From: Syntrophomonas sp. | Lineage (GTDB): Bacteria > Bacillota > Syntrophomonadia > Syntrophomonadales > Syntrophomonadaceae | Assembly: GCA_016841875.1 (NCBI GenBank) | Contig: JAENYG010000014.1 | Coordinates: 1-64,000, forward strand | DNA: 64,000 nt | Reading direction: 5' to 3' | In this document: positions 13,240 through 35,636 of the stretch, in pieces | How positions within the stretch are numbered: position 1 is the first letter of the stretch | Layout: every line of letters begins with the position of its first letter | Position numbers and translations under genes: made by a program | Notes under the pieces: model-generated | The model's database searches: none | Seen by the model: the letters and a program-made list of their open reading frames with translations, nothing else | Told to the model about the DNA's origin: nothing

Positions 13240-14205
13240 ATGATTAATATAGGTTCAGTAGCAATAAGCAATCGAGTTATAGCTGCTCCTATGGCCGGAA
13301 TAACAGATAAAGCTAATCGCATCATCGCCTGTTCTTTCGGCTGCGGCATGACCTGCAGTGAAATGATCAGCGATATGGGACTTATTTATGGCCAGAAGAA
13401 AACCCAGCAAATAGCAGATATTAGTGGAGAAAACAAGCCTATAGCAGTTCAGATTTTTGGATCGGATCCAGAGAAGATGGCAGAGGGAGCCCTTATCGTA
13501 GAAAAAATGGGTGCCGATATTATAGATATTAATATGGGATGCCCCACCCCTAAAATAGTAAAAAATGGCGAAGGCTGTGCTCTGATGTTGGATCTGCATC
13601 GCAGCCGGGATATAGTAAGATCCATAGTTAAAGCGGTAAAAGTACCGGTAACCGTAAAAATGCGCCGCGGTTGGGAAGATGGCACTACTACCTGTCTGGA
13701 GTTGGCCGGCATTGCCGAACAGGAAGGCGCTAAGGCAGTTACTCTGCATGCCAGAAGCCGTATGCAGTTTTATTCCGGTCAGGCTGATTGGGCACTGATT
13801 AAAGAACTCAAACAGCACACCGCTATCCCGGTAATTGGGAATGGAGATATTTGGACCGCAGACGATGCAGTTAGAATGCTGGAAGAGACAGGTTGTGACG
13901 CAGTAATGATAGGCAGAGCAGCCATGGGCAACCCATTCATCTTTCGGGAAGCAGTAGAACTCGTGGAAAATGGAAAAAGGATACCGCCCCCGAGTATGGA
14001 AGAACGCATCCAGATCGCGGTAAAACATCTGGATCTGGCCTGCAGCTTCAAGGGTGAAACGGTAGCGGTTAGAGAGATGCGCAAGCATTTTTCCTGGTAC
14101 ATTAAAGGCAGGTCGGGAGCAGCCAAAATCCGATTGCAAATAAATACCGCCCAGAGTCGAGAAGAACTCATCCAGGCTTTGGCAAGCTTTGGTGCCAGGC
14201 ACTAA
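13240..14205 (+). CDS. dusB: tRNA-dihydrouridine synthase
   Basis: A flavin-dependent enzyme that reduces specific uridines of tRNA. Motifs are APMAGITDKANR, the catalytic-cysteine loop MGCPTPKIVKNGEGCAL, VTVKMRRGW, HARSRMQFYSGQADW, IGNGDIW and MIGRAAMGNPFIF. It has 321 residues, as expected for DusB-like proteins. It starts one base after the coaX stop. The last four codons (GARH) and the stop lie inside a long palindromic repeat at 14191-14266, so the native C-terminus may have been changed by insertion of that element. Confidence 0.95.
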   Translation: MINIGSVAISNRVIAAPMAGITDKANRIIACSFGCGMTCSEMISDMGLIYGQKKTQQIADISGENKPIAVQIFGSDPEKMAEGALIVEKMGADIIDINMGCPTPKIVKNGEGCALMLDLHRSRDIVRSIVKAVKVPVTVKMRRGWEDGTTTCLELAGIAEQEGAKAVTLHARSRMQFYSGQADWALIKELKQHTAIPVIGNGDIWTADDAVRMLEETGCDAVMIGRAAMGNPFIFREAVELVENGKRIPPPSMEERIQIAVKHLDLACSFKGETVAVREMRKHFSWYIKGRSGAAKIRLQINTAQSREELIQALASFGARH

Positions 14206-14266
14206 CTTACTAACTTATGCTTTATTATGGATTTTGGCGTAAGTTAGTAAGTTAGTGCCTGGCACC
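14191..14266 (+). repeat. REP-like palindrome, copy A (dusB / RAYT junction)
   Basis: A long imperfect palindrome that begins GGTGCCAGGCACTAACTTAC and ends with the inverse, GTAAGTTAGTGCCTGGCACC, around a loop containing ATTATGGATTTTGGCG. It holds the dusB stop (14203-14205, +) and the transposase stop (14252-14254, -). Copy B at 15152-15223 has the same loop in the same orientation; copy C is at 35031-35114. The hairpin could also act as a bidirectional terminator. Confidence 0.85.
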
Positions 14267-15094
14267 AGAGTTAAGATACTTGCAAATGGCTGCATCTGAT
14301 AAACCAATGTAGGCTCCGATTTCTTTTTGAGTATATCCCTGCTTGCTTGCTGTTTGAGCATACACTTGCTTGTAGGCCATAAGGCGTTTCTTTCTTGAAC
14401 CGCTTAATATTAAACCACAGTCCTCCGCTTTAGCCCCGGTATTTTTTAATATTTCCTCTAAAGTGAACCGAGTATGTTCGGTTTTGCGTGGGCAAACATC
14501 TTCCTTAAACTGTATACTCCCTATTTCTTCTATATTTTCAAAATTAGCTCCATCTTCTTCCTGTCCCATGAAATGTTTGTATTCACTTAGAGCATGAGGC
14601 AAATTGTTAGAGAAAATACTCATCATTAAATCCCAATTAACAAAACTAGACTGTAAACTTCGATATATCCGATCACTGCTCCACATGTATTCTTCTGGAA
14701 GGGACCGTATTCCGGCCCTTACAGGATTTAAATGGATATAGCGGATAACCCGTAGCAAATAGTGTTCATTTTCAACCGGAATGGCCTGATAGCGTCCTTC
14801 AAATACATGCCCGGATCTGCTATACAATCGATTAAATCGTCTGGCATATCTGGAATTTACCCAATGCATTATTTTGCTAATAGGCTTAGTTCCAGTTCTT
14901 AGAGCTAGGTGATAGTGATTATCCAGTATGACGAAGGCAAATAGTTCGACTTCGTCTTTAATTACAGCAGTTTCAAATTGGTTCAGTAAATATTCTTTAT
15001 CGCTTGACTGGGAGAAAACATTATTTCTATTATTTCCGCGTTGGATTACATGGTAAATGGCGCCTGGGTATTCTATACGTGGCTTTCGGGGCAT
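14252..15094 (-). CDS. REP-associated tyrosine transposase (RAYT, Y1/IS200-like)
   Basis: A 280-residue single-domain HUH/Y1 transposase relative. The N-terminus MPRKPRIEYPGAIYHVIQRG is typical of the family. The HUH-like pair is seen in LDNHYHLALRT, and the family segment VRYIHLNPVRAG follows. After the catalytic domain there is a C-terminal helix-turn-helix-like stretch (YTQKEIGAYIGLSDAAICKY) found in many RAYTs. I choose the ATG at 15092-15094, preceded on this strand by GGGAGG (15102-15107); an upstream in-frame start would add 23 residues overlapping the repeat. Such proteins process single-stranded REP hairpins, and here one lies at each end of the gene. No catalytic defect is obvious, though activity cannot be judged. 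Confidence 0.9.
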   Translation of the reverse strand: MPRKPRIEYPGAIYHVIQRGNNRNNVFSQSSDKEYLLNQFETAVIKDEVELFAFVILDNHYHLALRTGTKPISKIMHWVNSRYARRFNRLYSRSGHVFEGRYQAIPVENEHYLLRVIRYIHLNPVRAGIRSLPEEYMWSSDRIYRSLQSSFVNWDLMMSIFSNNLPHALSEYKHFMGQEEDGANFENIEEIGSIQFKEDVCPRKTEHTRFTLEEILKNTGAKAEDCGLILSGSRKKRLMAYKQVYAQTASKQGYTQKEIGAYIGLSDAAICKYLNSGARH

Positions 15095-15151
15095 AATAAA
15101 ACCTCCCGTCAATATAATAACAGGAAATAATTTACATATCAACAAAATAAA

Positions 15152-15223
15152 GGTGTTAGGCACTTGCTAACTTATGCTATATTATGGATTTTGGCGTAAG
15201 TTAGTAAGTTAGTGCCTGGCACC
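15152..15223 (+). repeat. REP-like palindrome, copy B
   Basis: The second copy of the RAYT-flanking palindrome runs from GGTGTTAGGCACTTGCTAAC to GTAAGTTAGTGCCTGGCACC with the same loop orientation as copy A. Its left arm is slightly eroded (an ACTTACTA block is shortened). A and B are therefore direct copies bracketing the transposase gene. Confidence 0.85.
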
Positions 15224-15269
15224 TATTGCTTTTAAGTTAGTAAGTTAGTGCCTGGCACCTATTGCTTTG
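15198..15269 (+). repeat. 36-bp tandem duplication of a REP half-site
   Basis: Two tandem 36-base units each contain AAGTTAGTAAGTTAGTGCCT followed by GGCACCTATTGCTTT, starting at 15198 and 15234. The first unit is the right arm of copy B; the second is an extra half-palindrome. It reads as an unequal duplication or a partial re-insertion event. Confidence 0.8.
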
Positions 15270-35024: not shown

Positions 35025-35636
35025 AACTATGGTGTCAGGCACTAACTTACTAACTTATTACCTTTGAAGTACCTGGACAATAAGTTAGTAATTAGTAAGT
35101 TAGTGCCTGACACCGGGCAAACTGCATCAGTAAGTTAAGAGGCTGTCCTGGTCATTGAGAGATGATTTTGGTACAGCCTCGATCTGTCATGCGATACTCT
35201 TCAGGAGTTTTCTGCCTTACCGTTTAGTTCTGCGTTTAATCCAGATTGCATTCTAACCGAAAAATATTATTGAAGCCCACGCATGCGGTAACTCGAAAGC
35301 TTAAAGTCCAGATACGATGTGGTCAAATCCAGGCTGCATTGCAAACCTTTGATATTTTTTATCAAAATATTTTTATTCTGAATTTGATAAATTTGAACTA
35401 AATATGGAATGCCGTATCAATTTCAGGAAAGCTTGAAAGGGACAAAAAATAAAAAGTATACATCATATTTTTAGACAAGATTGGACCGAATGTAAAAAGA
35501 AACCAAGTTTTGCAGGGAAAAAGACAATTAATGTTGAAATCTATAAAGTGCATAATGTCTAGCAAATATATAGTACAAAAGTACCAATATAATTCTTAAA
35601 CAAGAAAATAAATAGCATAGTAGAATAGGAGAGACC
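35025..35636. other. Long intergenic region with REP copy C and a hairpin
   Basis: About 610 bases without a gene. It begins with REP copy C (35031-35114). Next, GAGGCTGT (35139-35146) pairs with ACAGCCTC (35173-35180). The stretch 35180-35350 is moderately GC-rich with no reading frame or known motif, and 35350-35630 is strongly AT-rich and probably holds the promoter of the downstream polysaccharide genes, though I cannot define -35/-10 boxes. The transition may mark an old insertion boundary. Confidence 0.5.
35031..35114 (+). repeat. REP-like palindrome, copy C
   Basis: Starts GGTGTCAGGCACTAACTTAC and ends GTAAGTTAGTGCCTGACACC, the same family as copies A and B near the RAYT gene. Here GTGTC/GACAC replaces GTGCC/GGCAC in both arms, so the change is compensated and the stem is kept. 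The loop differs (CCTTTGAAGTACCTGGACAA). It starts seven bases after the amidase stop and may serve as a terminator. Confidence 0.85.

Follow-up and report, generated by a model that had tools for sequence, protein, structure and literature searches.

Known transposase-associated repeats

Tyrosine transposases with long TIRs carrying a GGGGWSAS motif constitute the TIRtrons, as described in the survey by Di Nocera et al. (2013, PMC3733652). REPs are located at gene ends, and GTAG REP termini provide flanking ORFs with TAG stops, according to Nunvar (2010, PMC2817692) and the same survey (PMC3733652). In E. coli, REPs situated within 15 nt of stop codons are reported in PMC12306157 to stall ribosomes.

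The locus considered here lies in a window of 64,000 nucleotides, the whole stretch of DNA that was analysed, from a Syntrophomonas genome (G000). With a probability of roughly 0.8, it represents a TIRtron/REPtron-like element whose copies at gene ends replace native tails by repeat-encoded four-residue tails. It would consist of a domesticated-type Y1 transposase related to IS200/IS605 (RAYT/TIRYT) and of its terminal repeat, which is also dispersed through the genome as short non-coding copies (REPIN/MITE-like), located at gene 3' ends. As occupied and pre-insertion sites show, a gene hit in its last codons reads into the tip of the repeat and stops at the first TAA, and its native tail gives way to GARH, GVRH, or GTRH in the home genus and to VPGT in the sister genus. 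The dusB gene is an example, which most simply predates the separation of three congeners, and the transposase gene ends alike. Copies that inserted in another frame or orientation have probably been lost to selection, or the insertion mechanism disfavours them, and the spread itself presumably proceeds by the transposase via single-stranded DNA, as suggested by knowledge of the family.

The dusB–transposase locus

Apart from its end, dusB (tRNA dihydrouridine synthase B; 13240-14205, plus strand) is intact, with a TIGR00737 score of 391.5 bits (cut-off 293). Its end falls into palindrome copy A (14191-14266), which contains two perfect 27-nt arms and a 22-nt loop: the left arm, GGTGCCAGGCACTAACTTACTAACTTA (14191-14217), recurs as an exact inverse at 14240-14266, and the near-perfect hairpin has a predicted fold of -34.6 kcal/mol (z -13.5). 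As the palindrome is a long hairpin, an Rfam search with it returned miRNA precursors only, all scoring far under the gathering threshold. The left arm opens GGT GCC AGG CAC TAA in the dusB frame, and the protein therefore ends in ...SFGARH, its last four residues and the TAA stop (14203-14205, plus strand) being encoded by copy A.

The neighbouring gene (14252-15094, minus strand; 280 aa from ATG, with a possible upstream GTG start at 15163) encodes a RAYT/TIRYT-type Y1 (HUH) transposase (PF01797, 2.4e-14). It ends in ...LNSGARH, read on the minus strand from the right arm of copy A, and its TAA stop occupies 14252-14254 (minus strand). The claims of the earlier note that copy A provides GARH and the stop to both genes, and that the transposase ends within its own repeat, thus hold: both TAA codons lie in the arms of A.

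In an alignment, the Y1 residues HYH (60-62) and Tyr112 are invariant in three homologues, and the NCBIfam REP transposase model NF047646 scores 75.5 bits, just under its cut-off of 80. As in RAYT/TIRYT elements, the gene is flanked by its repeat (copies A and B), which occurs genome-wide in about 44 blocks. A PDB sequence search found no match at E 0.01, and a search of the genome contigs yielded two distant relatives only. Alignment with two homologues places the end of the conserved core near KYLNS, beyond which the tails are unrelated: GARH in the window, ISSVPGTKLNNK in a 51% paralogue, and KQDSK in the sister genus. The tail of the paralogue is likewise encoded by that paralogue's own palindrome.

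In copy B (15157-15223), which matches A at 97% over 62 nt, the left arm is damaged (GGTGTTAGGCAC and a 4-nt deletion); the two copies do flank the transposase in direct orientation, as had been proposed. An extra tandem right arm follows B (15233-15259; 36-nt direct repeat of 15197-15232), a feature absent from the earlier note. In the window the tip GTGCCWGGCAC is found four times, against 0.01 expected. A further palindrome of the same family, with a GGTGTC tip, occupies 35027-35114; its match starts (35027) 2 nt after the stop of a gene encoding 799 aa.

Four other RAYT-like genes of the genome (L059-L062 at C42:141450, C22:148610, C22:166183, and C2:92413) adjoin GGGGACGGTTCT- or AGAACCGTCCCC-like repeats, often near their stop codon. 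The repeat beside them contains CGTC, although CGTC repeats were not associated with transposases in the 2013 survey (PMC3733652).

Distribution of the repeat

The repeat consists of a tip (GGTGCCAGGCAC or GGGGTCAGGCAC) followed by 8-nt subrepeats that contain TAA. The approximately 44 blocks in G000 (3.97 Mb) were counted from sequence stretches of this genome, and in 20 of them a gene stop falls into the block or lies at most about 15 nt away, compared with about 3% of random windows. Counted by arm, with genes called by a home-made codon-usage ORF scorer (many of them confirmed by family models), the stop lies inside the arm in 5/64 cases (2.2% of random windows, p 0.014); in another 15/64 it precedes the arm by up to 15 nt (1.1%, p 4e-16). 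The corresponding numbers are 5/50 and 14/50 in the congener G002, and 8/36 and 11/36 (G059) and 8/28 and 9/28 (G057) in the sister genus, against about 2% and 1% of random windows, respectively. Across these four genomes the excess of stops inside the arm has p values from 0.014 to 6e-8, and that of stops within 15 nt upstream reaches 2e-16. All five G000 gene ends supplied by the repeat use the same frame, giving GxRH and a stop, while the eight in G059 end in VPGT, as do seven of the eight in G057, the remaining one ending in GARHLSC. The genomic copies, collected as the earlier note had suggested, are thus concentrated at gene 3' ends and supply stops repeatedly.

One observation speaks against the reading as a transposase-borne element: G001 and G002 contain many copies of the palindrome, yet no transposase of this subfamily was found in these near-complete genomes at E<=1e-50. 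The copies there constitute an apparently orphaned repeat population.

Palindrome copies at the ends of four G000 contigs (C22, C84, C39, and C63) are continued by a second repeat, CAACTTTCGCAGGAG, and several contigs of this genome break there. At L048 (C45:9471) a palindrome arm directly follows ...DPWRLN in both G000 and G002; at the same position of its G001 orthologue, L156, there is an unrelated repeat (GGGAAACGGGGACAGG...). A search of the available literature with the repeat motif matched only papers on unrelated animal subjects.

Replacement of native C-termini in the sister genus

In G057 and G059, a transposase with 50% identity is flanked by a perfect 31-33-nt TIR, GGTGCCAGGCACTTAAGTTGTTAAGTTATTGTT, whose tip is related to that of the home-genus repeat. 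Single arms are dispersed in these genomes, most of them without an inverse partner. In this sister-genus repeat the earliest stop lies in another frame: the first stop is one base further in, and therefore the tail of the host genes differs to match, ending in VPGT.

Arms also cluster strongly around the transposase gene, with about 15 of the 38 G059 matches and half of the G057 matches falling into such regions (G059:C1:114396-240304, RAYT at 192896; G057:C1:196613-243080, RAYT at 222905). This clustering suggests local spread from the source.

Several sites can be compared with and without the repeat. The radical-SAM gene of G058, a third genome of the sister genus, has an empty site and ends in ...SRREFLEEPSYVKKYQI; in G059 the repeat lies inside the gene, the protein ends in ...SRLKFIDNMVPGT, and the old coding end (...AAATACCAAATATAA) is still visible downstream of the repeat. 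RNase III ends in ...VLQDSSLLGELGF without the repeat and in ...VLQDNLVPGT with it, and the AmmeMemoSam gene in ...IAYIIC and ...IAYIIMVPGT, respectively. In the NuoF-like gene of G058 the repeat stands just behind the native stop, whereas in G057 and G059 this stop is missing and that of the repeat serves instead. The family domains are complete in most of these proteins. The direction of change appears from the state in G058 and, for the radical-SAM gene, also from the left-over coding end. The comparisons show that the predicted native C-terminus is replaced by a repeat-encoded tail at insertion sites.

Reading frame, orientation, and choice of site

The most serious alternative is that the repeat is found at gene ends solely because, anywhere else, it would kill the cell or damage promoters, the stops arising incidentally from an AT-rich arm in a small, dense genome. 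We consider this explanation to have close to an even chance. Stops in five of the six frames of an arm are not rare in shuffled sequences (P 0.06-0.19), and other REP families, too, lie within 20 bp of 3' ends (PMC3733652). However, the earliest-stop frame is used at 17/19 distinct stop-supplying sites, though other frames, too, reach a stop after a few codons (p 6e-7 against an expectation of one third; the p value is approximate, as the sites were counted by hand in both genera, some are orthologous or in the same gene, and those common to several genomes are not fully independent). The strict orientation in the sister genus also disagrees with it: single arms beside gene ends stand tip-first in 18/18 cases (G059), and the reverse orientation, which would stop all three frames, is found at no gene end.

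The same numbers bear on the suggestion that a stop-supplying repeat makes insertions harmless and is tolerated for this reason. They lend it no support: stops in five of the six frames are not unusual, and the reverse arms that stop three frames are absent from gene ends of the sister genus. Since these reverse arms stop three frames as well, stop supply alone cannot explain the orientation bias; the 18/18 tip-first orientation and the extreme conservation of the arms are not explained by it, a point against the element reading as well. Six-frame stopping as a designed property was also considered and rejected: full palindromes have it, but shuffled arms already reach five of six frames.

Position and orientation could instead be set by the transposase, if it targeted short, A/T-rich DNA similar to TAA or TAG. 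The sequence upstream of the G000 tips is indeed A/T-rich, position -1 being T in 59% of tips and a pyrimidine in 84%, and among the sites remote from gene ends 14/23 have a stop trinucleotide within the last 7 nt (9.5 expected, P 0.02). The effect is nevertheless weak, sites within genes show none (5/11 against 4.3 expected), and no fixed motif emerged. A stop-codon-like target motif was set aside for its weakness; such targeting is unlikely to account for the distribution.

Signs of concerted evolution in the arms

Between G057 and G059, the arms of 19 orthologous sites differ at 2 of 589 positions (0.3%), compared with 6.5% upstream and 8.4% downstream in the flanks of the same arms; the low divergence is partly due to ascertainment, as 12 of the 31 arm positions served as the exact search seed. 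The remaining 19 positions per arm contain at most two differences in 361. Many home-genus sites common to G000 and G002 have GGTGCC or GGTGTC tips in the former and GGGGTC in the latter, with the differences falling on both arms at once. These tip changes look like templated replacement rather than independent mutation. At common intergenic sites of the two genomes (such as L022, L026, L035, L040, and L041), the loops differ or are inverted.

Strong conservation of the arms, compared with the flanks, might also be expected if gene-end repeats were kept for a role in mRNA, as a terminator, a 3' stabiliser, or an element that stalls ribosomes at most 15 nt from the stop. Many copies do lie within 15 nt of a stop, and the E. 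coli REPs cited in PMC12306157 offer a precedent. We regard such a role as improbable as an explanation of the placement: in the sister genus the majority of copies consist of one arm without an inverse partner, so that no long hairpin forms, and the home-genus tips change in concert, which argues for homogenisation and not for selection site by site.

A variant combining several of these elements, in which the transposase recognises stop-like DNA and so directs the element to gene ends, the tip carries its stop 12-13 nt inside in a protective frame, and repeat and target preference are co-adapted to harmless insertion, appears more doubtful still.

History of the dusB end

DusB of the congeners is 93% (G002), 86% (G001), 77% (G004), and 76% (G003) identical to the protein in the window. 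In G001 and G002 the palindrome stands alone at this position of dusB, without a transposase there. In G001 the protein ends in ...LIQAIGARHKY, the first TAA being lost and the next one used. In G002 it ends in ...LIQALGSGTNLLTYAQIYKA (also given as ...GTNLLTYAQIYKA): the palindrome is read in another frame with the stop in the second arm, and its loop is inverted relative to G000. The repeat-free congeners end otherwise, in ...LIQAIS (G004) and ...LIQAIRGCAENW... (G003), neither of them in GARH; the palindrome therefore rewrote the dusB end before the locus took its present form. Most simply, it predates the split of G000, G001, and G002. Of the proposal that dusB was rewritten by the insertion, the part concerning the repeat stands, as the end is repeat-encoded and relatives without the repeat end differently; the part ascribing the change to arrival of the transposase gene does not, as the palindrome occupies the site in three species, two of them without a transposase. 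That GARH is the native end, around which a palindrome merely grew, can be practically dismissed despite the IGARHKY of G001, as this genome has the palindrome too, the repeat-free congeners end differently, and G002 uses a different frame of this palindrome.

Comparison with known systems

Within the reading as a TIRtron/REPtron-like element, the before/after sites indicate that a short mobile repeat rewrites the C-termini of household proteins (RNase III, DusB, and a NuoF-like subunit). Recurring GARH/GVRH and VPGT tails in annotations of these genomes are repeat-derived. For REP-like repeats at gene ends, target choice, a frame filter, and an mRNA role predict different fresh insertions.

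The locus resembles TIRtrons (TIRYT), as these are described in PMC3733652, in the RAYT-like Y1 gene, the long and partly self-complementary flanking inverted repeats, the dispersed families, and the possible overlap of a repeat with the transposase 3' end. The GGGGWSAS motif is present in GGGGTCAG tips (17 in G000 and 40 in G002), without a GTAG tag; however, the commoner G000 tip, GGTGCCAG, does not fit the motif, and the tip is mostly GGTGCCAGG in G000. The locus also differs in that its transposase lies between two complete palindromes and a tandem half-arm. With GTAG REPtrons it shares palindromes that are scattered over gene 3' ends and also lie near the RAYT stop, but arm GGTGCCAGGCACTAACTTACTAACTTA has no GTAG, and the stop is a TAA 12-13 nt inside the tip that adds a four-residue tail. 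The distance from the stop falls into the same class as that of the stalling E. coli REPs (PMC12306157), here as judged from sequence alone. Stop supply by a TIR in one fixed frame is not among the features described in the accessible part of the TIRtron survey (PMC3733652). To these systems the present locus adds a further lineage, pre-insertion sites showing C-terminal replacement, a fixed frame matching the stop carried by the repeat, a strict orientation, and signs of concerted evolution.
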